Below, in pieces: positions 2,877 through 26,585 of a stretch of 35,233 bases of DNA. A model generated the notes under the pieces. That model was given only the letters and a program-made list of their open reading frames with translations. It ran no database searches and was not told the origin of the DNA. This stretch comes from a virus. The translations under genes were made by a program, and so were the position numbers. The DNA lies in the IMG/VR virus record IMGVR_UViG_3300024518_000966, positions 1 through 35,233 of that record; one strand, given 5' to 3'. Every line of letters begins with the position of its first letter. Position 1 is the first letter of the stretch.

Positions 2877-3063
2877 GGAGGCATGAGAAAGCACGATTCT
2901 TGGGGATGCTAAGGTATTACCCAAGGTTAAAGAATGTCTCTAAGAGGCTCTGAGGCGGTCTGAGATTGCAATATTTTGCATTTTCGGACTGCTTTAGGAC
3001 TTCTTGGACATTTGGCTCTCTTATTGCCTCTGTAATATAAACCCATAATATGGAGAAAAAATT

Positions 3064-3291
3064 ATGGAACTAAACAAAGAAGAACTCAATGAAATAATTG
3101 GCAATGTTCAAATAAGTCTAAATAAGACTGGTGTAAACGCGCACTACTTGAAACCTATACTGAATAAAGATGGCTCAGTTAGGAAGAATAGCAGAGTCAC
3201 TTATGAAAGTATTGAAAAATCAAAAGTGAGATACGCTTTTTTAGAAGGTTTATTAACCAAGTTAAACAACTTGGCAAATGTCTATTACTAG
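3064..3291 (+). CDS. Unknown small phage protein (75 aa)
   Basis: I do not recognise this protein. It is basic and soluble, with no Cys and no membrane segment. Residues 1-20 (MELNKEELNEIIGNVQISLN) and 45-72 look helical. ATG 3064 follows ATATGGAG by 8 bases. Its leader (2877-3063) follows the predicted cut of hammerhead 1 and holds a small hairpin TGCAA, loop TATT, TTGCA near 2967-2980, but not the TGGGA fold seen at other genes. The second full-length structured leader starts 8 bases after its stop. Confidence 0.6.
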   Translation: MELNKEELNEIIGNVQISLNKTGVNAHYLKPILNKDGSVRKNSRVTYESIEKSKVRYAFLEGLLTKLNNLANVYY

Positions 3292-3298
3292 ACATTAG

Positions 3299-3402
3299 TT
3301 GATCTCTAATCCTGAGCATGATGAAAAAAGGCTCAATTCACCATGATCATATTCGTTCTGAGTGTGATCATTGGGAATTATCCCAACTCAAAATATGGAG
3401 GT
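3299..3402 (+). promoter_or_regulatory. Structured mRNA leader, copy 2
   Basis: This is a homologue of 1901-2002. It has TGAGC..GCTCA (3313-3335), ATGATCA/TGATCAT (3343-3349 with 3365-3371), and TGGGA, loop ATTA, TCCCA (3372-3385), then ATATGGAGG at 3393-3401. Against copy 1, three pairs of the middle stem change on both sides and pairing is kept (T-A to A-T, A-T to G-C, G-C to A-T). Confidence 0.7.
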
Positions 3403-3409
3403 AAATATT

Positions 3410-3985
3410 ATGAGAAAATTAAGTAAAGAAAAATTAGCTAAGTTAGATGAATTCACTAGGAATTTTAATGAATTCAAAAAGCTTTGGAAACTAATAGAGG
3501 AAAAAAAAGGACATCCTTTTAACTGGAATCGATGGAAGACACCATATCGTTTTGGTATAAAAAGTAGTTTAGGGGATGTTGATGAATTGTTAAGAAATAA
3601 GCTTGTAGAGTATTGTGATGGTCAGATATTAGATGTTGAATTGAAAGAGGCATATGATTCTGAAATTTTCCATTTCGACACCGATTATCCTTTAATCTTT
3701 GTAGCAAATAATCTTAATGGAGAAATAATTGGTGAGTGGATTGCCCCGCATCAGCATTATGATTATCCATCTTTTTGGACAGATGTCGATTGTTCTACTG
3801 GTGAAATAATAGGTTTAACAACACCACTGATAATATGTTCTATCAATCTTCCCGAAGAGTTCGAGGCTAATAGAAAACTAGGTTCGCTGTATAGCAATAT
3901 ATGGCTGTACTCTCGTGATCTTTATGAAGAAGAACCCGAAGATAGGTATGCTGTCTCTGAATATGCTGAAGGCGGTATAGGCTAA
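3410..3985 (+). CDS. Unknown phage protein (191 aa)
   Basis: No family is recognised. The N-terminal 45 residues are Lys-rich and helical (RKLSKEKLAKLDEFTRNFNE). The rest is a mixed, aromatic and acidic globular sequence with a His cluster (APHQHYDY, about residue 115-122) and an acidic end (DLYEEEPEDRY). ATG 3410 is preferred because ATATGGAGG ends 8 bases upstream; the frame continues to 3371 through the leader hairpin and is not likely to be translated there. Hammerhead ribozyme 2 starts five bases after the stop codon. Confidence 0.65.
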   Translation: MRKLSKEKLAKLDEFTRNFNEFKKLWKLIEEKKGHPFNWNRWKTPYRFGIKSSLGDVDELLRNKLVEYCDGQILDVELKEAYDSEIFHFDTDYPLIFVANNLNGEIIGEWIAPHQHYDYPSFWTDVDCSTGEIIGLTTPLIICSINLPEEFEANRKLGSLYSNIWLYSRDLYEEEPEDRYAVSEYAEGGIG

Positions 3986-3989
3986 TTAA

Positions 3990-4071
3990 ACCAACTGAAG
4001 AGTCTTTGAGATAAGACGAAAGAAATTAAAGAGGGGCATCCCTCGCCTTTGAGAAAAGGTTTTCTCTTGGT
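3990..4071 (+). ncRNA. Hammerhead ribozyme HHR2 (type I)
   Basis: This is the cleanest of the three. The core is CTGAAGA (3995-4001) with stem II GTCTT/AAGAC (4002-4006 with 4013-4017), six-base loop TGAGAT, and GAAA (4018-4021). Stem I is ACCAA (3990-3994) with TTGGT (4067-4071), 5 bp. Stem III is AGAAA (4021-4025) with TTTCT (4061-4065), 5 bp. Two branch hairpins lie inside stem III: GAGGG, GCAT, CCCTC (4031-4044) and CCTTT, GAGA, AAAGG (4046-4059). The cleavage triplet is CTC, giving a predicted cut between 4066 and 4067. A terminator-like hairpin starts six bases after the cut and moxR follows. Confidence 0.85.
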
Positions 4072-4072
4072 G

Positions 4073-4103
4073 GACTGGTAAATATTTTACTGGTCTTTTT
4101 TTT
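4073..4103 (+). terminator. Terminator-like hairpin between HHR2 and moxR
   Basis: GACTGGTAAA (4073-4082) pairs with TTTACTGGTC (4086-4095) as RNA, with two G-U pairs and a TAT loop. Eight T residues follow (4096-4103). The stem is AT-rich, so termination may be partial and act as an attenuator ahead of the MoxR gene. The hairpin contains one copy of the recurrent AAATATTTTACTGGT element. Confidence 0.55.
4080..4094 (+). repeat. AT element AAATATTTTACTGGT, copy 1
   Basis: First of seven copies of a 15-18 bp element, AAATATTTTACYRGTAT. It lies in the leader of the MoxR gene and is part of the terminator-like hairpin there. Confidence 0.6.
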
Positions 4104-4105
4104 AT

Positions 4106-4138
4106 GGGGTGGCGAAAGCTACTCCCACAATATGGAGG
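4106..4138 (+). promoter_or_regulatory. Leader hairpin and ribosome site of moxR
   Basis: GGGGTGGC pairs with GCTACTCC (4106-4113 with 4118-4125, two G-U pairs) around a GAAA tetraloop. ATATGGAGG (4130-4138) follows closely. The place and spacing are those of the TGGGA/TCCCA hairpin in other leaders of this block. Confidence 0.55.
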
Positions 4139-4146
4139 ATAATGTT

Positions 4147-5208
4147 ATGACACCAAGTCAAGCATTGTTGGCGTGTTATCACGTCATTAAAGGCGGTAAT
4201 TCGCCTTACCTTATCGGATCAGTCGGTATTGGGAAAAGTGCGGTTGGAAACCTACTTGCTCAAAGACTTGCTGATGAAGATAAACTTAAATTGGTTCGAG
4301 ATGTAATCAATCCAAATGAAAAGCAGTTTTCTGTCATAGACCTACGACTATCATTATTAGAGTCTCATGATCTAGGTGGACTGCCATTTTTGGATGCACA
4401 ATTTCGTCAGAAAAGAGCCTTTCTTGGAAACCTACCTGTAGGTGGAAAAGGATTGCTCATGCTAGATGAATTTGCACAGGCACATCAAAGTATCCAGACC
4501 ATTGCATCACAATTGCTTTATGAAAGACGCATTGGGGAATACAAACTCCCTGATGGCTGGAATATATTGTGCAGTAGCAACAGAATGTCTGATCGTGCTG
4601 GTGCTAATAAGATTCCTACTCAAACCATTGGTAGAGTTTCAATGATCGATTTCCAACACGATTTCGATGATTGGGAGGCGTGGGCAATTGAAAATGATGT
4701 ACTTGCCTCAGTTATCAGCTTTCTTTCATTTAGGAGAGATGGACTACTGGACTGGTCACCTAAGATTGATACTCCGCAAGCTACACCTAGAACATGGGTG
4801 AGGTTGTCGGATACTCTCAAGACAGGTATTCCTGATGATTTAAGAATAGAATTCTTTACGATGGATGTTGGACAGAAATGGGCAATTGAGTTTGATAAAT
4901 TTTTGCTACTATCTGAAGACCTTCCAAATATTGATGATATTTTGAAAAATCCGAGTAAGGCTGAACTGCCAAAAGGGGCGGGTCTAGATTATGCTGTTAC
5001 ATTAGCATTAATGACTACCATTGCCACAGCAAATAAGAAAAAAGTTTATGACTATTTTGATAGTGCTTTAACTTATTTGGAAAGGTATCGACAGGTCGAA
5101 TTTTCGATCTTGTTTGTCCGAATGGTAACTGCCAAAAGAAATGAACTCAGAGAGACTCAAACTTTCACTGAATTCTCAGTTAAGCACAGCGATATAACTA
5201 TCCTGTAG
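4147..5208 (+). CDS. MoxR-type AAA+ ATPase
   Basis: A 353-residue protein of the MoxR branch of AAA+ ATPases, which use ATP to remodel partner proteins and usually work with a vWA-domain protein. The Walker A motif is GSVGIGKS at residues 24-31, starting unusually close to the N-terminus. Walker B is GLLMLDEFAQA near residue 105, and the sensor 1-like LCSSNR is near 143. An AAA+ lid with TPRTWVRLSD is at about 217-226. ATG 4147 is supported by ATATGGAGG 8 bases upstream. It stands first in a three-gene set with an unknown protein (5434) and a metallopeptidase-vWA protein (6485). Hammerhead ribozyme 2 and a weak terminator precede it, and ribozyme 3 separates it from the next gene, so its dosage relative to its partners may be set at the RNA level. 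Function in the phage is unknown. Confidence 0.8.
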   Translation: MTPSQALLACYHVIKGGNSPYLIGSVGIGKSAVGNLLAQRLADEDKLKLVRDVINPNEKQFSVIDLRLSLLESHDLGGLPFLDAQFRQKRAFLGNLPVGGKGLLMLDEFAQAHQSIQTIASQLLYERRIGEYKLPDGWNILCSSNRMSDRAGANKIPTQTIGRVSMIDFQHDFDDWEAWAIENDVLASVISFLSFRRDGLLDWSPKIDTPQATPRTWVRLSDTLKTGIPDDLRIEFFTMDVGQKWAIEFDKFLLLSEDLPNIDDILKNPSKAELPKGAGLDYAVTLALMTTIATANKKKVYDYFDSALTYLERYRQVEFSILFVRMVTAKRNELRETQTFTEFSVKHSDITIL

Positions 5209-5273: not shown

Positions 5274-5381
5274 GCCACTGAAGATTCCCATTAGGGTGGG
5301 ATGAAACGGATGTGGTGTATGGGGTTGGAAAATATTTTACTAGTATTATATTTTCCAATCTCTGCGTTACAACTGTATGGT
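5274..5381 (+). ncRNA. Hammerhead ribozyme HHR3 (type I, long stem III)
   Basis: The core is CTGAAGA (5278-5284) with stem II TCCCA/TGGGA (5286-5290 with 5297-5301), six-base loop TTAGGG, and GAAA (5303-5306). The closing 10.1/11.1 pair is T-T rather than G-C. Stem I is GCCA (5274-5277) with TGGT (5378-5381). Stem III is long: 5306-5317 pairs with 5365-5376 with one mismatch and several G-U pairs, then 5323-5335 with 5348-5360 forms a 13-bp apical hairpin. The cleavage triplet is GTA, giving a predicted cut between 5377 and 5378, which is 56 bases before the next start codon. Confidence 0.7.
5330..5346 (+). repeat. AT element AAATATTTTACTAGTAT, copy 2
   Basis: Second copy of the recurrent element. 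It sits in the apical hairpin of hammerhead 3 stem III. Confidence 0.6.
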
Positions 5382-5433: not shown

Positions 5434-6492
5434 ATGAGTAAAAACAAAAAACCAAAGAACGATACTACCAGTGTACTGCACCAAAAAGCTGTGATGATTA
5501 AACTCAAAACAGGGCTTTGGAGTGGTATAAAAAGTAGTAAAAAAGCACGACAGATTCTAGCAGAGCAATCTGATGGTGGGTCTGAAGGTGCTTTCAATGG
5601 TCAACTTAATCTTACAGGTGACAAAAGTAGAGGGAATAATCCTAATACTTATTTTCGTGGAATCCTTACCAAGTTTAAGAACGAATCATTTCATCCGTTA
5701 ACCCATGCTTGGGAAGATGGAAAAGATGGTTGGAGACTATGTTCTGTACACAAGCAATACCAAGTGCTGGATTCCTTCAACAAGGCTAAGATTGAATGGG
5801 AAAAGGAGGTTGATGGTTTCGTCAAAAGACTCCCCAAAATCAAGGCTATGTTTGCAAAAAGTGACTTAGGTATTTTCTATGATGAGTCATTCTATCCGCA
5901 AGGATATAGCTACTACGATGAAAATGAAAAGCTTGTGAAAGTGACTGCCGATGAGGTTCTTCGCTCTAAGTTTAAATTTGATTTAGACACAAGAGAAGTT
6001 GAAAAGGTTGTCAATGTCAAAGACATCCGCCTCGAAGTATCTGAGGAGATGAAGACAAGGCTAGTCAATGATACGAAAGATCGTTTAACAAGAAACCTAA
6101 TTGCTGTTGGAAAAAACGCAGTGGATGAGGTAGTCGATAATATCGAAAACCTCACCACAAGAATGCGAGAATACAACAGTGTAAAAGGCAAAAAGAGAAG
6201 TGGAACTTTCCACAAAACTAATGTGCCGAAGATTGAAAAATCTTTGTCTGTATTAGCTGATCTTAATGCTGAGATTCTTGGTAATGATCCGACAATCAGC
6301 AAGGTGCATAAATCACTTACTTCTAAAGTCAATAAGCTTAAAGATGAAAAGTATTTCTCTGCTTTAAGAGATGATACTTTTGAGGCTCAAGAAGAAAGAG
6401 ATCAAGTGTCAGATAGTTTAGATGATTCTATCACTGACCTAAAGGGTGACTTTTTAAATAAAGCATTCGGAAGGAGTGATAACAATGACTAA
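5434..6492 (+). CDS. Unknown middle protein of the MoxR-vWA module (352 aa)
   Basis: No family is recognised. It is a soluble, Lys- and Asp-rich protein. Residues about 60-170 contain an aromatic globular part (TYFRGILTKFKNESFHPLT, FYDESFYPQGYSYYDE). Residues 190-350 look largely helical or coiled-coil, ending in an acidic segment. ATG 5434 follows ATATGGAGG by 9 bases. The gene overlaps the metallopeptidase-vWA gene by 8 bases (ATGACTAA), so the two are translationally coupled. Its fixed place between the ATPase and the vWA partner suggests an adaptor or substrate of the complex; this is inference from context. Confidence 0.65.
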   Translation: MSKNKKPKNDTTSVLHQKAVMIKLKTGLWSGIKSSKKARQILAEQSDGGSEGAFNGQLNLTGDKSRGNNPNTYFRGILTKFKNESFHPLTHAWEDGKDGWRLCSVHKQYQVLDSFNKAKIEWEKEVDGFVKRLPKIKAMFAKSDLGIFYDESFYPQGYSYYDENEKLVKVTADEVLRSKFKFDLDTREVEKVVNVKDIRLEVSEEMKTRLVNDTKDRLTRNLIAVGKNAVDEVVDNIENLTTRMREYNSVKGKKRSGTFHKTNVPKIEKSLSVLADLNAEILGNDPTISKVHKSLTSKVNKLKDEKYFSALRDDTFEAQEERDQVSDSLDDSITDLKGDFLNKAFGRSDNND

Positions 6493-17411: not shown

Positions 17412-20400
17412 CTAGTTAAAAAATCTAACAGGTAATTCAGACTGCTCTCTTAACTCAGGAACATATGCAAGCCTTTTTGATTTTTGTAACTGCATTTGTT
17501 GAATCATTTCTTTTTTAACACTAGGACTCAAATCTGAGTTGAGGATTCTATCTCGTCTGTCTCTCCAACTTACTAACCAACGATTTAATGCTAGAACTTG
17601 TGACCTTGTTTTTGCAATTCCTTTTCTGTTTGCCATTAATGCCTTAGCCTCTTTAATTCTGTTCTGCTTTTTCAAAGCGGATAATGTTTGCACATACATA
17701 TTGCTTTCTTTTCTTAGGTCATAGAACTGTTGTTCTAACCCTCTGCCAAATTCAGTCTGAGTAAAAAATCTTTTTAACACAGGCATTTGATCTATTCTTG
17801 GAGATAAGAAATCTCTATCGGTAACTTGCCTGAGCGTTGCATCTATCATCGTTAATAAATAACCACCTAGAGTGCCTCCATACCCTTTCATAATGTATTC
17901 CAGTTTAATAGGGGATATGTTTAGCTGTTCACCGACAAGCCTTGCTAATTCGTTAGTGCTATAACGAGATTGTGCTGATGGTTCTAGACCTTCTCTCATG
18001 TAATAAGGAATGATTTCAGAGCCTGTATAGGTAGACCTATTGTTGACCACCTCTACAATGGGTTTAATTGCTTGAAAGCCCAATGGGTCAATTTTAAGAG
18101 TATTTTTTGCTTGTCTTCTATAACTTTTAACCAAGTCAGGCAAGTCTCCTCCCATCATTACATCAATAAACCTTTCAGGAATAACTTTAAATATTGTGCC
18201 AACCTCAAAAGGTATGGGGATTTTGAGTGCGGGGATTCCTTTCCCAAGTGGAATAACCCAATTATCATCCCTCTCTTCTACAGAAATTTTTTGATATTCC
18301 TCATCGTCACTGACCAAAGCATAGTATATTGCTGTCAAAAACATAAGCATTCCACCACGAGTCAGCATCTTCATTTGTATCTGTCTTGCTATTTCTGATG
18401 ATGTTCCTTCAAGCTGACTACTAACTGCTGAATATTGACCAATTCCACCCCTATAAAGCAAATCAAGACCCTGTATCCTTGCATTTAGAAATGGGATAGC
18501 GGCAGTGATAACTCTGAACAATGGGTCTGCGCCACGCCTACTAAAGTTGATGATCTCTAAAGCTTGATATGCAGCCTCTCTTTGACTGCCTGTTTGTTGA
18601 TAGATAACATCATAAACACCTTTACGAGTAGCACCATCAGACTTTCCTGTTTGTTCACCAAGATAATCCCATACCTTTAAGAATTGATCTTTGGCATTCA
18701 TTGATCCATCAACACCAATACCCTGTTTTCTCATTTCTTTTTGAATAAACTTAACAATATCCATTTCATCGTTTGAGAAATCATATCCACCCAAAACTCC
18801 CCATCTTTCTAATTCAGTAAAGTCTGCGTTAAAGTTTTTAAATGTATCTATAAATGGCTTAAAGTCTGCACCACTTGTCACAAAAGCTGACATTGTGTCA
18901 CGCATCATATTAACCAACATAAATCCGGGATCACGAGTCACCATATCTCTAAGGAAACTTGCAGGCATAGCCAAGAACTTCATTATTCCACTCAGGTCAT
19001 TCATGCCTAATGCTTGCAGTCCATGAATAATTTCTGGATCAGCAACTCTATAAAAAAGTCTTTCGCCATTTATATAAACAGGAATAACATTGATGCCTTT
19101 AGCCTCATTCATATCTGTAATTAATTCTGCCATTCCTGCTGCTTCAAATGTAGTCAGCATTTTTGCTAAACCAGAATTTTTCATGGCTGCCGCTACAATT
19201 GATAGAGCATTTCTTGATATTGCCTCAAGTGGTGCAGGCTCTATTGCTGACTCACTACCTTTAATCTTTATACCCAATGGATTTCCTGCAATAAATCCCC
19301 CTGCAATTTTCGGACCACCGATTGTATCGTCTTGCATTTTTCTATAGAAAGGATAGTAATCTGCATTATCTTTCCATATTTGAGCAGTACCTCTTGTGTC
19401 TAAACCTAGCATTTCAGCTACTTCTATAAGTTGATCATAAGCCAAATTAGACAAACCACTTCTTGTAAAGTCTGTACTTGTATCAAGAATCATAGATATT
19501 AATTCTTTTTCACTCTTGGTTTCACTTAGGATTCCCATTTCAACAGCATAATCAATAAGTGCATTATTCCATTCTTGATAATTATTATATACTTCAACAA
19601 CCTCTGGATACTGTGCTTCTATTTCTTTTGCTTTATCTACTACTTCTTGTGTTACAGGTGTTGGTATTCCGTTTGCATCTAACCTAGTTCCTCTTTGAGC
19701 AATGGCATAAATTTTAAACAAAGATTCTAAATCAATTTTTGCATTTTTATAAAGAGGTGCAAATATTTCTAATAACCCTCCTTTAGCAAAATCTGCAACA
19801 TAAGTGCCACCCTCTTTAATTGTTGGCACTCCAAGCTTAACCATACCTGAAAAAATTCCTCTCACTCTTTCAGAAAATCTAAGGTCTGCCATTGCATTAG
19901 TATCTATTGAGTTTAAAAGAATCTTAGCTTTCTCGCTTTTTTCTCCAGCCTCAAGTAGTTTTTTCTCTACCAAACTTAATTTATCAATTAATGCAACTCT
20001 AGCGTTTTGAAAAAATGTACTTGCTGTTTCTTTTGTTTCAGCCCAATCAATCATGCTTGAACCAAAGTCTTTATCTAAAGCATTTACACCTCCGACATCT
20101 TCAGCAGCTTGTTCAAAACCTGCTGGTGTTTTTGATTGAGTTCTCCTGTCTGTTGGAACATCTCTATTAACTTGATCTAGTATGTTATCAATAGATTTAC
20201 CTTCAGCCATTTGAAATGCTACAGCTATAGCCATAGGATCAGCTTTTGTATTAATTCTAGGTATGTGGTTACGAGAACCTTGTTCTGCTTTACGAACAGC
20301 CCTTGCTTGCCATTCTTCTGGAGAAACTCTTCCGAGTATGCCTTGGTCGTTTAACTGTCCATATAAGGCTGATCGCCTACTATAAATAGGCAGTTCACTT

Positions 20401-23400
20401 ACAGGCTCTACTTCGTGTCTTCTGGCAAATCGTCTGTAGTTTTCAAAGGCTGGGATGTAAAGATCACTGATGATGGCTCGTTGTAAATCGGATGATTTGA
20501 TGAGACCTGCTTTATTCCCAAGGAGGCGTAATGCTCTGCTAGTTCCTTTTGTGTAAGGGGCTTTTTTGTATTGGATGAGTTCTGATTCTTGTCCATAGGT
20601 TTCTAATTGATAATCTGTTTCATAAGTTGCTTGTTGTATTATATCAAGAAACTCATCGATGTCACTTGTCTCATAGTTTTCTTTACCAAATGATCTTGGG
20701 TCAATTAACATAACTGAGTTCTGTTCACTAGGCAATACAGTAAAGTTAATATCTTCTCTGTCTCTAGTTAAATCACTAAAATTACTCATTAAAGATTCTA
20801 ATTCTTCAGGAGAAAACTTAGAATTATCTGGCTTTCTTAACAACAACCCTGTGTGAACACCCTTTGATGTTGGTCTACTAATAATAGCTGAGTCTTGTAA
20901 GAAAGCATCGGTTAACAATCCAGCAATACCTTCGACTGTAGCCTTATCAGCACCCGGAAGTTTTAATACAATATTAGGAGTAAGATTATTTTCAAATGTA
21001 CCTGCTGATATATCTATTGTATGTGGTATACCCAACCTTCTTAATACTCTTAACTGATTGCCTGATGTTACATCCTTTAACAGATTTTCCATATAGTTAA
21101 GATGTTCATCAAAGGTAAGATTTAAATCAGCAGGCAAGTAGCCACGATCTACACCCATTTTAAATTCAAATGCAACCGATGGTGCTAATGCAGTAATTGC
21201 ATTAACAATATCTTCTGATGCACTACTATCAAAAGGATTAGTAGTTCTATTGCTTTTATAACTTGCAGAATGAATAAATATTCCTGATATCGAATGATCC
21301 ATATCAAATAGACCTTCTTCTTTCATTTTATCTATTTTTGCAATTTCTTTTTTAGAAGATTGTATGGCTGAATCTACCGAGCCTTCATTTGCAACAGTAG
21401 ACTTACCATATCTTTCATGCGCCCATAAAATAGCTTGTACTGCTGATGGACCTTCAAACTGCATCTCGATACCATTTTGTTGGTATAGCTCTGAAGCAAG
21501 AAGACTTATTATTCCCTGAGCCATTCTATATTCAACTTCAGTTGGTGATTTAGTATCAAACCCAAGCTTAGTCAACATATGTCTATCTATAACAGACCAA
21601 GGATTAAATTGATTATTAGCATCAGAAAGAATTTGTTGAGCATAAAATGCAGTTTTCATACCACTGCCCTTTTTATTCATCTGTCCTGTTGTATAAATAT
21701 TAGCAAGCATCTTTATCTTATCTCCAGATAAAAAATACTCTGTTTGTTTAGCTGTTAATGCTGCTTTTAACTTAGATATATTTGATTTATTAAAATCAGT
21801 AATATTATTTTTATTTTTTACCTCTCTTGCTGTAATCATTACGCCCAATGCTGCTTTAAGGTTTTTTTCAGGAGTAGCTTGTGCGCTAGTAACACCAAAT
21901 ACTTTTGAAAATTCATTCATATTGGCATCACCAACAATGGTAGGAATTTTAACAGCCCATCGTTTATACCATTGAGAGTCTAATCCTCTGTTAATAGAGT
22001 CTTGTATATCTGCCATTAAGCTGTCATAGCTAGGAAAAGAATGTTTTTTTGTTGACCTTGGTGATAATTTTTTAAACAAATCTGAAAATTGTTTAGAAGT
22101 AATAGTGTCATTCTTTGTATAAAGATCGAGCAATAAATTTTCAACCTCTCCATCATTTAATATACTTTGAGGAATAATTCCTGATGTACTTAATGGACTT
22201 CTATCAGTAGGTGTATCTATAGATTGATCAACTATTGACTCAGCAACAGCAATAGTTCTTTCCAACTCTGCTCGTTCCAAATTACTATAAATAGGATTTC
22301 TAAAGCCTGTTCTTGATATAGGATCATTTTCTCCAGCTAATCTTGCTTTCATTGTGGCTAAAGTTATTTTACCCTGATCTCCTTTCAACATATTAAGCCC
22401 ACCGCCATACCAATCATCAACCATCCCTTTAGCATCTGCCAAGCTATTCCCAGCATCACCGACTTCTCCATCCATAACATGGGCAATGTTCCAACCATAA
22501 CCAGCCTCATCTGGGCGCGATATTATGTGACCCTTATAGTAATAACTACCAACTTCAGGATCATAAGTTGCTGTTGGTTTGAATCCTGTAGCAACCCTAT
22601 CAGTAGGTTGGTCTGTGAGTGTATACATTTCTTTATAAGGAGGTATGCTGCTATTTAACTTACCAGTATTTATAAGCTCTTTTATATAGCTAACCCCATC
22701 TTCTTTTGCTTCAGTAAAACTATCTCCAGATAAACCTATATCGCCATATCCTTTTGCTCTTGGGTCTGTAATGACCATTTGAAACTTATCACCATAAACA
22801 GTCTCTTTAACAATCTCTACATCATACCCATACAGCTTGCCTCCCTGAATGCTATAAAATTCATCAGGTATTTTTTTAAACTTTCCTATTGGCTCTTCTA
22901 TTCTCCTACTAACTCTATCAGTAGGTTGGAATAAATCTCTTTGAACACCACCAAGCTTTTTAATTAAAGCTGCTTTTTGTTTATTAATCTGTTTAATTTT
23001 TTTAGCCGACTGTTTCATCAAGCGATCACCAGCTATACTGTCAGGCTTGTAGTTACTTTCATCTCCAACCTTTTTATCGGCTCTTCCTCTTTGGTAATTA
23101 GCAATATTCTGATCATATGCCTTATTTAAAATTGATAATCGTTCTATATTTTTATTACGATCTGTAGAAGCATCCCCAATTGGTGGGTCAATCCTTTCTA
23201 AAAAGTTTGGATCACGCTCTAATGCTTTATCCAATTTATGCAATGACCTAATTTTTCCTCTTTGTCTTGCACCAATTTTTCCACTGCTTATGTCTGTCAA
23301 AACAGAAGTAGGTGTTGTAAATCCATTGCTAATAGTTCTAGAAAGAGTTGTGAAAAACTGAAGTATTTTTTCAATAATACCTTTTGGTTTAGGTGCTTTT

Positions 23401-26400
23401 ATAAAGTCTGGATTAGCACGATAGTAAGCAAACATTTCTGCAATTAACTCTTCTTCAAAAGCATTGTCTCCTAAATGTGAGTAATCAGCCTTAAAGTCTT
23501 TAATTTGTTTTGTACTAAAAGAACGATGAGCAGTCTCTTTAAGAAGACGAACCTCTTTATCTGTTAATAAACCAAGATCAATTAAAGCATGAACTGCCTC
23601 ATGATCAATGGTCATAGCAAAAGAGTCTTTTAACTCTTGTTCTGATAAAGAACCATCAGGATCAGATTTTTCTAAAGAGGCTAATATCGTTTTCATTGGT
23701 CTGTCGTAAGTTCCTATAGCACCTGATTCTTCAAAATAATAACGCCCTCTTTCATCTTGCTTAACTCTAATAGAATCTTTAAGCGCCCTCTCAAACCTTA
23801 AAGAAATTTGTTTAAGCCCTAATGCATCCAGTCTTTCACGCATCTCTTCAAGTAACTTTCCATACTTCTCTGGATTATCAGGCGGTGGCAATAGCTTTAA
23901 TTCTTGATTAGATATTATTTCAGTATCAATATCTTGTTGTCTTGAAATAATGTCTTCTATTTCTTCATCTTGTAACTCTGTAGTGTTACGAATCCTTTCT
24001 CTTAATTCTTCCAGTGTTTCGTTTAGACCATTCATTTTTCTAGCTTGCTGTAAATCAAAGTCTTGAGTCATTTGTAGGCGATTCTTTGTCTTAATGGCTC
24101 TACCACTTTCAATTAAATCTTTTCTTAATTTTTGTATTTCTTTTGAAGTAAGGTCTTTTCCTGTTTCAGAATTTTTAACCTGTTCTTTAATTTTTTTGGT
24201 TGTTATGTTCTGACCAATATTTGCTTTATACAAATCATCTATTTGCTTTGCTGTGTATGGTCTAGGGGTATAGTCAGGCAATGACTGTTGATCAACATTA
24301 AATCGAGGAAGGGTTGCTATCTTTGCTATCAATAACTCTTTTTGCCCTTTAGTCATTTGACTATAATTATCAGTACCTGTTATGGTTGTTGCAAAATATT
24401 TAAAAGCGTCTGAGTTTAATTCTACTTTTATATTCTTTTTAGATAATGCTTCTTTAAGTGCTGATAAAGTAATATCAACATCACCTTTTTTATTTCTTCT
24501 AACTCCGATATTTTCATTTAATAAAGCTGATATTTGAAAAGTAACGGAAGCTTTTTCTTTTAATAAAGCATCAAAGTCAGCAGGTTTTAATATTTTTTTA
24601 GCTTCAACTAATGTATAAAAATTCTTTTTATCAATGCCTTTTTTATTAACTTTGTCATAAAACAAACTTAATTGGCTGGTAACATCTTCTAATCTCGCTG
24701 CATCTTCTGGAGTAACAGGCTCAAATTGACCAATGATGGGCACTTCTTTGCCATCCTTGCCTATTCTGGTTTTTTGTTTATAAATGGGGAATATATTTGG
24801 GATTTGATCAAGCTGTTCTCTTATGGTGTTAAGGTCAGCCTCGGTCATTGCGTCTACTTGAGGACCAAGCAGTTCTCGCAACATATTATCTTTCATAATA
24901 TTTGACATATTATAAAATTGTTCTCTGTCAATAACTGACTTCTCTTTCTCTGTCAGTTCTGTTTCTTGTTTGTATTGTTCTTTTCTAGCGGTAGATATTC
25001 TAGAATCATAGTTCGCTAAAACTTTTGCATCAAAAGTATTTTGCAAAGGATCAAAAAGCTTTTGTCCAATAAGATATGCAGTTCCATTACCTTCAAGACC
25101 ATTGATCTTTAAAGCATTGTTAACAAGAGTAGATACCCACACACTTCTTACATTTTTATCTAGTTGTAACGCAGTATTTCTAGCCTCTTCATCGGTAGCA
25201 AATGTTCCTTTAGTAAAGCCTGACTTTGCTCCAACAACATTATAAGTTCCGTCTTCGTTAAAGGTAATGTTATGAGTTTCTAGAATAGGAACCTCTCTAT
25301 CGTCAGCAGGAGATGGTCCTTTTCTCTTTCCCATTTCAATTTTTAATGCATCAAATGCATTTACATATGTTTCATATAGCGGTTTTGTCTTAGGATCACC
25401 TTTAAGTTCATTTATATTTGTCTGATAGACAGAAGCAACTTGTTCTAATTCACTGTCTGATAAGGCAGCTATATCTGTGCCTTTAAAATCTCCATAAATA
25501 ACTTTTTGGAAAGGAAGATATTTATCATCTATTGCTTGTTGTTCTGGAGATATAACTTGAGATGGCAATACAACAGAGCCATCAGCTACTGCACGATCAT
25601 AATCTTCTTTATATTGTTCAAACCTTTTATCTTCTTGATTCTGTGCTTCCTGTGCCTGCTGCCTAACATAAGAATTACCCAGTCCTCTTTTGCCCATAAC
25701 ACCACGAAAAACCAAGTCAGATAATGCACCAACTGCACCACCTACTGTTAAGTCATCAAACAGACTTTCACCTAATGGAACTGTATCGCTATAAATACCT
25801 AATGCAACAGCATCTTGAGCAATCCCAGCTAATGCTTCTTGGGCTGCTTCTTTTGAACCAGTTGCTAAAGCAAACCTAATTCTTTGTGGTATCTTATGAT
25901 ACATGCCCGGACCTTTAAGTATCCCTTTAAGCAAATGTTGGACAGTGATGACCTCAGACGCTCCTATAGCGCCACCTAATAGCTCTGATACAATTTCTTG
26001 ACCTTTGCCTACCTCTTCACCCATTGACCTCGCATACTCGATATTTTGGGCTTGCTCAGATATACCAACAGAAACAGCTAATGGAAGTGTTGCTTTGGTT
26101 GTAAGAGAGCCTAATGCTTTTTGTGCTGCTTTTGCTTGTGCGCCTCCAGCTAATACTTTTCCACCAAGCCCACTAATTTTAGTAGCAGCAGCGCCCGGAA
26201 CAAAGAAAGCACCAAATGAACCCAGACCCCCACCTAATTTAGCTGAAAACGCATCTTCATAACCTTCACCTATGCCTAATGCACTTTCATTTAATCCTAT
26301 TTGTAAGTCTTTAAAAAGATTAACGGCAGCACTGTCATTTCCAGAATCAAATAAACTTGATAAACCCTCACCTGCTGATAAAAAAGTAGAACCAAAACCT

Positions 26401-26585
26401 CTAGGTATACCTTTAGCAACTTCTCCTACATGACCTAAAATAGTTCTTTCTGTAGGAGCATCGTATGCAGTATAGGTATCAGGATATACCTTTGCTAAGT
26501 TATTCTGAATATCAATTAACTCTTCCTTAGATGCATTATCTGGAATGTCTAATTGCCTTCCGTCTGGTAAACGATAGAGTGCCAT
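17412..26585 (-). CDS. Giant polyvalent internal virion/ejection protein with zincin protease domain
   Basis: A 3057-residue multidomain protein at the end of the virion operon, where T7-like phages keep ejection proteins. The N-terminus (YRLPDGRQLDIPDNASKEEL) is the small domain that opens many large polyvalent phage proteins. Residues about 110-230 are Gly/Ala-rich and hydrophobic, possibly membrane-active. A zincin site HEAVH lies at about 995-999, with a downstream EEELIAEMFAYY near 1048. Several small beta domains occur between 1140 and 1460, separated by PTDR-type linkers near 1138, 1220, 1327, 1459 and 2143. The C-terminus (about 2530-3057) carries 'NMMRDTMSAFVTSG', a hydrophobic stretch near 2752 and the features of an LPD38-type domain. 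Probable role: a capsid-internal protein ejected into the cell, with self-processing or host-targeted proteolysis. There is no clear ribosome site; it starts one base after the previous stop, so coupling is likely. Confidence 0.75.
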   Translation of the reverse strand: MALYRLPDGRQLDIPDNASKEELIDIQNNLAKVYPDTYTAYDAPTERTILGHVGEVAKGIPRGFGSTFLSAGEGLSSLFDSGNDSAAVNLFKDLQIGLNESALGIGEGYEDAFSAKLGGGLGSFGAFFVPGAAATKISGLGGKVLAGGAQAKAAQKALGSLTTKATLPLAVSVGISEQAQNIEYARSMGEEVGKGQEIVSELLGGAIGASEVITVQHLLKGILKGPGMYHKIPQRIRFALATGSKEAAQEALAGIAQDAVALGIYSDTVPLGESLFDDLTVGGAVGALSDLVFRGVMGKRGLGNSYVRQQAQEAQNQEDKRFEQYKEDYDRAVADGSVVLPSQVISPEQQAIDDKYLPFQKVIYGDFKGTDIAALSDSELEQVASVYQTNINELKGDPKTKPLYETYVNAFDALKIEMGKRKGPSPADDREVPILETHNITFNEDGTYNVVGAKSGFTKGTFATDEEARNTALQLDKNVRSVWVSTLVNNALKINGLEGNGTAYLIGQKLFDPLQNTFDAKVLANYDSRISTARKEQYKQETELTEKEKSVIDREQFYNMSNIMKDNMLRELLGPQVDAMTEADLNTIREQLDQIPNIFPIYKQKTRIGKDGKEVPIIGQFEPVTPEDAARLEDVTSQLSLFYDKVNKKGIDKKNFYTLVEAKKILKPADFDALLKEKASVTFQISALLNENIGVRRNKKGDVDITLSALKEALSKKNIKVELNSDAFKYFATTITGTDNYSQMTKGQKELLIAKIATLPRFNVDQQSLPDYTPRPYTAKQIDDLYKANIGQNITTKKIKEQVKNSETGKDLTSKEIQKLRKDLIESGRAIKTKNRLQMTQDFDLQQARKMNGLNETLEELRERIRNTTELQDEEIEDIISRQQDIDTEIISNQELKLLPPPDNPEKYGKLLEEMRERLDALGLKQISLRFERALKDSIRVKQDERGRYYFEESGAIGTYDRPMKTILASLEKSDPDGSLSEQELKDSFAMTIDHEAVHALIDLGLLTDKEVRLLKETAHRSFSTKQIKDFKADYSHLGDNAFEEELIAEMFAYYRANPDFIKAPKPKGIIEKILQFFTTLSRTISNGFTTPTSVLTDISSGKIGARQRGKIRSLHKLDKALERDPNFLERIDPPIGDASTDRNKNIERLSILNKAYDQNIANYQRGRADKKVGDESNYKPDSIAGDRLMKQSAKKIKQINKQKAALIKKLGGVQRDLFQPTDRVSRRIEEPIGKFKKIPDEFYSIQGGKLYGYDVEIVKETVYGDKFQMVITDPRAKGYGDIGLSGDSFTEAKEDGVSYIKELINTGKLNSSIPPYKEMYTLTDQPTDRVATGFKPTATYDPEVGSYYYKGHIISRPDEAGYGWNIAHVMDGEVGDAGNSLADAKGMVDDWYGGGLNMLKGDQGKITLATMKARLAGENDPISRTGFRNPIYSNLERAELERTIAVAESIVDQSIDTPTDRSPLSTSGIIPQSILNDGEVENLLLDLYTKNDTITSKQFSDLFKKLSPRSTKKHSFPSYDSLMADIQDSINRGLDSQWYKRWAVKIPTIVGDANMNEFSKVFGVTSAQATPEKNLKAALGVMITAREVKNKNNITDFNKSNISKLKAALTAKQTEYFLSGDKIKMLANIYTTGQMNKKGSGMKTAFYAQQILSDANNQFNPWSVIDRHMLTKLGFDTKSPTEVEYRMAQGIISLLASELYQQNGIEMQFEGPSAVQAILWAHERYGKSTVANEGSVDSAIQSSKKEIAKIDKMKEEGLFDMDHSISGIFIHSASYKSNRTTNPFDSSASEDIVNAITALAPSVAFEFKMGVDRGYLPADLNLTFDEHLNYMENLLKDVTSGNQLRVLRRLGIPHTIDISAGTFENNLTPNIVLKLPGADKATVEGIAGLLTDAFLQDSAIISRPTSKGVHTGLLLRKPDNSKFSPEELESLMSNFSDLTRDREDINFTVLPSEQNSVMLIDPRSFGKENYETSDIDEFLDIIQQATYETDYQLETYGQESELIQYKKAPYTKGTSRALRLLGNKAGLIKSSDLQRAIISDLYIPAFENYRRFARRHEVEPVSELPIYSRRSALYGQLNDQGILGRVSPEEWQARAVRKAEQGSRNHIPRINTKADPMAIAVAFQMAEGKSIDNILDQVNRDVPTDRRTQSKTPAGFEQAAEDVGGVNALDKDFGSSMIDWAETKETASTFFQNARVALIDKLSLVEKKLLEAGEKSEKAKILLNSIDTNAMADLRFSERVRGIFSGMVKLGVPTIKEGGTYVADFAKGGLLEIFAPLYKNAKIDLESLFKIYAIAQRGTRLDANGIPTPVTQEVVDKAKEIEAQYPEVVEVYNNYQEWNNALIDYAVEMGILSETKSEKELISMILDTSTDFTRSGLSNLAYDQLIEVAEMLGLDTRGTAQIWKDNADYYPFYRKMQDDTIGGPKIAGGFIAGNPLGIKIKGSESAIEPAPLEAISRNALSIVAAAMKNSGLAKMLTTFEAAGMAELITDMNEAKGINVIPVYINGERLFYRVADPEIIHGLQALGMNDLSGIMKFLAMPASFLRDMVTRDPGFMLVNMMRDTMSAFVTSGADFKPFIDTFKNFNADFTELERWGVLGGYDFSNDEMDIVKFIQKEMRKQGIGVDGSMNAKDQFLKVWDYLGEQTGKSDGATRKGVYDVIYQQTGSQREAAYQALEIINFSRRGADPLFRVITAAIPFLNARIQGLDLLYRGGIGQYSAVSSQLEGTSSEIARQIQMKMLTRGGMLMFLTAIYYALVSDDEEYQKISVEERDDNWVIPLGKGIPALKIPIPFEVGTIFKVIPERFIDVMMGGDLPDLVKSYRRQAKNTLKIDPLGFQAIKPIVEVVNNRSTYTGSEIIPYYMREGLEPSAQSRYSTNELARLVGEQLNISPIKLEYIMKGYGGTLGGYLLTMIDATLRQVTDRDFLSPRIDQMPVLKRFFTQTEFGRGLEQQFYDLRKESNMYVQTLSALKKQNRIKEAKALMANRKGIAKTRSQVLALNRWLVSWRDRRDRILNSDLSPSVKKEMIQQMQLQKSKRLAYVPELREQSELPVRFFN

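Follow-up and report, generated by a model that had tools for sequence, protein, structure and literature searches.

A type I hammerhead ribozyme is predicted at the head of the moxR leader in the virus record analysed here (the window, 35,233 bases), and hammerhead folds recur at the same place in related viral contigs. We propose that this element, HHR#2, is a self-cleaving moxR-leader device that would trim away upstream RNA and leave a hairpin-capped 5′ end, which would make it a natural counterpart of the synthetic insulator RiboJ; we put the probability of this sequence-based reading at roughly two in three.

A complete type I hammerhead 5′ of moxR

HHR#2 occupies positions 3990–4071 (all features lie on the + strand unless stated otherwise) and was identified by direct reading, by a descriptor compared with shuffled sequence, and by a covariance model. 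Base-by-base reading shows a full set of type I hammerhead parts with an exact core, in agreement with the parts and coordinates given by a first-pass annotation of the same DNA. Three helices surround the core in type I order, with stem I open. Stem I (5 bp) pairs ACCAA at 3990–3994 with UUGGU at 4067–4071. The core strand CUGAAGA (3995–4001), an instance of CUGANGA, is conserved in relatives and leads into stem II (4002–4017), whose 5 bp join GUCUU (4002–4006) to AAGAC (4013–4017) across the loop UGAGAU. The second core strand, GAAA (4018–4021), ends in A15.1 at 4021, which pairs with U16.1 at 4065; C17, at 4066, provides the required H17. As regards a possible tertiary contact between loop II and the stem I region, both loop II and the UAA preceding stem I resemble the RF00008 consensus of viroid-type hammerheads.

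Stem III (4021–4065) is branched. Its base helix of 5 bp, AGAAA (4021–4025) with UUUCU (4061–4065), opens into UUAAA (4026–4030), hairpin A (GAGGG-GCAU-CCCUC, 4031–4044) and hairpin B (CCUUU-GAGA-AAAGG, 4046–4059), an arrangement supported by changed pairs and by like architecture in relatives. The predicted cut, 4066/4067, falls 80 nt 5′ of the moxR start at 4147, in line with the figure of about 80 bases in the first-pass annotation. HHR#2 is classed as a hammerhead by these sequence features, and RNA from 3990–4071 is very probably self-cleaving. One calculation counts against this: in the minimum-free-energy fold of the isolated segment, part of the core is paired (−24.3 versus −18.9 kcal/mol in the energy model).

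The flanking genes place the element precisely. The upstream gene (3410–3985) ends with a stop codon 4 nt before stem I, and moxR, encoding a MoxR-type AAA ATPase (phrog_1297), spans 4147–5208. A start at 4132 was set aside in favour of the ATG at 4147 because the Shine–Dalgarno sequence GGAGG, read directly at 4134–4138, lies just before it. The moxR–vWA module continues with a conserved middle gene that has no family match (5434–6492) and a gene for a vWA or metallopeptidase-like protein (PF13203, PF09967; 6476–7909). Elsewhere in the window, positions 17412–26585 on the − strand encode a 3,057-aa protein with a C-terminal LPD38 polyvalent-protein domain, next to proteins of 1,199, 648 and 505 aa that fall in no PHROGs family; an identification of the 3,057-aa protein as a virion RNA polymerase was not supported, and it is assigned as an LPD38 polyvalent protein.

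Detection and further hammerheads in the window

A descriptor demanding at least 5 bp in each of the three stems matched the window twice, at 3990–4071 and 2797–2876, and matched none of 400 dinucleotide shuffles. We then trained a covariance model solely on three further phage contigs, with the window excluded; it aligned to HHR#2 from end to end at 91.2 bits (E = 4.1 × 10⁻²²) with no non-standard pairs. Where model and HHR#2 differ, the changes affect stem II and hairpin A, each on both strands. The first-pass annotation had proposed scoring the segment with an Rfam hammerhead model, and there the outcome was divided between the model from other contigs, which recognized it, and Rfam, in which no family matched 3990–4071 at the gathering threshold. 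At a permissive threshold the sole Rfam match was RF00008, a type III model (26 bits, E = 0.0014). The gathering threshold also misses clean hammerheads with perfect cores and stems in another phage contig (L008), so the miss of HHR#2 is uninformative and reflects how the library threshold is set, with no bearing on what defines the ribozyme. Rfam at either threshold was dropped as useless for testing the branched form or other phage type I hammerheads.

The second descriptor match, HHR#1 (2797–2876, predicted cut 2871/2872), is likewise an intact type I hammerhead and is recognized by the covariance model at E = 1.7 × 10⁻⁶. Its first base follows immediately on the stop codon that ends the gene at 2389–2796; it precedes the gene at 3064–3291 and shares with HHR#2 a stem III made of UUAAA and two hairpins. 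The 192-nt leader between its cut and gene 3064 holds a long imperfect hairpin at 2932–3013. A degenerate or variant hammerhead with U–U at 10.1/11.1 lies at about 5274–5381, with a predicted cut at 5377/5378 before the middle gene; it is weak on its own, with a score of 11, around which (scores 11–12) about 0.1 shuffled hits arose over the whole test set. The same U–U variant of stem II recurs in L018 and L066–L068. Neither of these elements, nor the hairpin and T run described below, appears in the first-pass annotation.

Hammerhead folds precede moxR across a phage clade

To sample relatives independently of ribozyme sequence, we used a MoxR protein profile, which fetched 26 loci from viral contigs; two of its four input sequences came from contigs first found through their hammerheads, which biases the profile towards that clade. 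Across these loci, full-length matches are 43–46% identical to the window MoxR. A hammerhead fold lies directly 5′ of moxR, between the preceding stop codon and the moxR ribosome binding site, in 26 of 26. The core is standard in 17 and variant in nine: U4C in four, one extra U before stem II in two, and U–U at 10.1/11.1 in three. Hammerheads with U4C are reported to cut poorly in vitro, yet well enough for viroid infectivity (PMC3088659); those with the extra U or the U–U may be inactive. The one-U insertion between A9 and stem II (CTGANGAT before stem II) is seen in L039, L049, L053 and L079, in hammerheads that are otherwise constrained in their pairing.

Selection by hammerhead DNA patterns alone gave 88 elements with a downstream open reading frame, 38 of which precede moxR. 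Elements scoring at least 14 numbered 42 across 30 sequences, against none in ten rounds of shuffling; the 30 comprise the window, relatives and extended records, some of them overlapping, so that the 42 are not all independent. Other searches were negative: blastn of 3900–4180 against phage records gave only short, distant hits that we take as chance (E about 0.9 or worse), and neither a single-sequence MoxR scan of viral contigs nor a MoxR profile scan of genome contigs returned a match.

Hammerheads also stand before other phage genes. Positions 1341–6900 of L008, a 92,726-base contig of an unrelated phage, carry an array of eight clean hammerheads of type I. Each one immediately precedes a small gene, and none of the eight attains the Rfam gathering score. 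Another group, in L003, L004, L006, L009 and roughly twelve more contigs, precedes a conserved small gene (MATTTTTTQATKVIAALENG...) with the cut about 46 nt before the start codon. In leaders of L079 (1719–2480), the Shine–Dalgarno sequence sits in the loop of a small hairpin (GACC-UUGGAG-GGUC), 10–20 nt 3′ of the hammerhead cut.

The ribozyme is conserved with moxR

Contigs with nearly identical ribozymes (identity mostly 0.95–1.00) remain alike in the 150 nt downstream, which cover the leader and the start of moxR (0.78–1.00), whereas identity in the 150 nt upstream is mostly 0.59–0.67, compared with 0.60 for shuffled sequence. The boundary of conservation coincides with the start of the ribozyme. 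Because the ribozyme is conserved with moxR and not with the upstream gene, we regard it as part of the moxR leader, at which upstream genes have been swapped, so that one constant leader stands behind variable upstream sequence, as in RiboJ constructs. Among 52 distinct elements, 24 have the upstream stop codon in the 5 nt that precede stem I; in the others it often overlaps the ribozyme.

The second RiboJ-like trait is the order of parts, in which hammerhead, hairpin and ribosome binding site follow one another. In the window, a hairpin of 11 pairs (4072–4096) begins where stem I ends and would thus lie at the 5′ end that cleavage is predicted to give the moxR mRNA; it is supported by folding, by equivalents in relatives and by covariation. 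A hairpin directly after stem I is found in 30 of 31 distinct moxR leaders. Presence is not significant in itself, given that 74% of shuffled moxR leaders also form one, and we therefore rely on covariation: in ten relatives, all 60 of 60 cells (six pairs) are paired although four positions change. The expected number is 52.3, and no shuffle out of 5,000 attains 60.

The window hairpin is followed by a run of eight T, read directly at 4096–4103. A G+C-containing hairpin with a U run has the form of an intrinsic terminator, and in the window phage this one could end transcription 5′ of moxR, so that the link from the cut to the moxR mRNA is less than certain there; the T run may reduce moxR expression. 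It is accordingly conceivable, though unlikely, that in this phage HHR#2 mainly finishes the upstream message, with transcription stopping at 4072–4103, the 3′ end being trimmed by the ribozyme, and moxR being served by its own promoter or by read-through. The short distance from the upstream stop codon to HHR#2 would suit such a role, as would a hairpin followed by T6 after the cut in L138. Against it, just 4 of the 31 distinct moxR leaders have a T-rich tail; GAAA follows the homologous hairpins in L096, L098, L115, L122 and L170, and other bases follow those in L039 and L052. Conservation of the ribozyme with moxR, and not with the upstream gene, also speaks against this role. We therefore take the hairpin as the conserved element and the T run as a local trait, mostly absent from relatives. 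The proposal of the first-pass annotation that cleavage gives the moxR message a new 5′ end stands as the best reading, on the strength of the 26 loci and of conservation with the moxR leader, with the terminator form as a reservation for the window phage.

Pairing is maintained while sequences change

Among 13 distinct elements with the UUAAA form, pairing is complete (100%) in stem I, stem II and the three initial pairs of stem III even though both strands vary in sequence, a level reached in none of 2,000 shuffles. These pairs were counted from a decomposition by hand, and the count leans towards structure since most of the elements were recognized by their fold; the MoxR-selected set is free of that bias.

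The pairing bears on a different reading, slightly less probable again than a role in finishing the upstream message, in which the hammerheads serve mainly as recombination joints or selfish repeats for gene swapping, cutting is incidental and many copies are decaying. Unrelated upstream genes are indeed joined exactly at the 5′ end of the ribozyme, core variants are common, and ribozyme versions have been exchanged between otherwise similar contigs: L053 and L055 share the leader of L039, L049 and L052 and carry a different hammerhead. DNA homology alone, however, requires no pairing, and the stems remain paired through two-sided changes; the elements also keep their place after the stop codon and ahead of the ribosome binding site. 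That an exchanged ribozyme gives way to another hammerhead at the same site, as in L053 and L055, counts in favour of the moxR-leader reading.

Stem III before moxR comes in two versions, UUAAA with two hairpins in the window, L056, L060 and L069, and a plain hairpin in L039, L045 and L052 and likewise in L041. A MAFFT alignment of both versions, in which the 3′ half was misaligned, was not used. The branched version might be imagined as a sensor, UUAAA and hairpins A and B making cutting and moxR expression dependent on a ligand, a protein or the state of the phage. Two features, UUAAA and a UA-bulged hairpin whose loop is RGURAY-like, do recur in HHR#1 and several contigs while the stems change, yet a plain hairpin occupies the same place in four relatives and no known aptamer in Rfam matched, and we consider a sensor improbable. 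More improbable by far is the release of gene-length pieces by consecutive hammerheads for joining into circular mRNAs: the genes at 3064–3985 are bracketed by two intact hammerheads whose predicted ends would suit RtcB-type ligation, but a look through ten phage records, some of which are fragments, gave no RtcB. Nor did Perreault et al. find the circular products of prophage hammerheads that they sought (PMC3088659).

A model for moxR leader processing

In the leader-trimming reading that we favour, a transcript arriving from the upstream gene would fold HHR#2 co-transcriptionally, once synthesis has passed the 3′ half of stem I, and would be cut at 4066/4067. By the general chemistry of hammerhead cleavage, the downstream mRNA would start with a 5′-OH on UUGGU, followed by the stable hairpin, the ribosome binding site and moxR, and the upstream mRNA would finish in a 2′,3′-cyclic phosphate behind the hairpins of stems II and III. 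Such ends may stabilize the mRNAs, and the moxR leader would be identical whatever gene precedes it. Since other genes of the operon have hammerheads of their own, the RiboJ principle would here be joined with cutting of the operon.

Relation to known systems

Processing of phage transcripts by hammerheads has precedents. Perreault et al. (2011) describe hammerheads between phage genes, often in arrays, and suggest that they process long phage transcripts (PMC3088659). Their examples, HHphage of haloviruses HF1/HF2 and a triple array at Agrobacterium ardA, resemble ours in lying between phage genes, several in a row, with a proposed role in cutting RNA into single-gene or operon mRNAs. The HF1/HF2 hammerhead also lies immediately 5′ of a replication gene (13 nt separate it from a helicase gene), and a transcript 5′ end has been mapped within 3 nt of its cut (PMC3088659). 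The first-pass annotation knew of hammerheads in some phages but of no mRNA-processing one before a MoxR–vWA module; hammerheads ahead of phage genes are already on record, and what appears new is the moxR link together with the stem III architecture. The flanked genes vary in the examples of Perreault et al., in contrast to the single gene, moxR, flanked here across many contigs. The consulted portions of that paper describe neither a stem III branched into UUAAA plus two hairpins nor conservation of a hairpin at the 5′ end that the cut creates.

RiboJ couples the sTRSV hammerhead to a 23-nt hairpin that normalizes the leader, and about 0.9 of it is cleaved in cells (PMC8794103, PMC7536230). 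Both systems order hammerhead, hairpin and ribosome binding site such that cutting removes, or here would remove, variable upstream RNA to leave a constant hairpin-capped leader. RiboJ, however, is engineered from a plant satellite RNA, whereas the HHR#2 leader is natural, of type I, differs in hairpin and stem III, and lies between operon genes; by its arrangement, it may work like RiboJ. The Clostridium cip-cel operon offers a further parallel in stabilization by intergenic cut sites with stem-loops (PMC4423207): a polycistronic RNA is cut between genes, and the level of each fragment depends on the stem-loops that then cap its ends. It differs in that the consulted part of the source describes no self-cleaving ribozyme and places protection mainly at the 3′ end.

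The gene order is shared more widely than the ribozyme. The Schitoviridae records examined contain a related MoxR ATPase closely followed by a vWA or metallopeptidase-like gene; the label ‘N4-like’ for the window phage was dropped, as its MoxR is about 30% identical to the Schitoviridae proteins and its 3,057-aa protein is of the LPD38 polyvalent kind. In four isolates outside the clade, we found no hammerhead before moxR, the gap there being 10–60 nt in N4, Klebsiella VLCpiP4a and the cyanophage S-TIM5 and 194 nt in Rhizobium RHph_I1_6. Within the collection of papers searched, none contains both ‘hammerhead ribozyme’ and ‘MoxR’. As far as checked, three features appear to be new: the clade-wide moxR association, the branching of stem III, and conservation of the 5′ hairpin.

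The literature still treats the function of hammerheads in bacteria and phages as unknown, and their enrichment near phage genes as unexplained (PMC10085705). With a ribozyme leader accompanying one and the same gene in dozens of contigs, and the sequence upstream freely exchanged, hypotheses of mRNA processing and of insulation become directly testable. A stronger proposal, which we offer tentatively and at somewhat less than even odds, is that this clade of uncultured phages uses hammerheads as true insulators, such that exchangeable early genes can carry ribozyme, 5′ hairpin and ribosome binding site with them and moxR expression depends on this device. If so, genes could be swapped into the operon while the mRNA ends of their neighbours stay unchanged. 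The arrangement before moxR suggests that a device of synthetic biology has a natural counterpart in phages.
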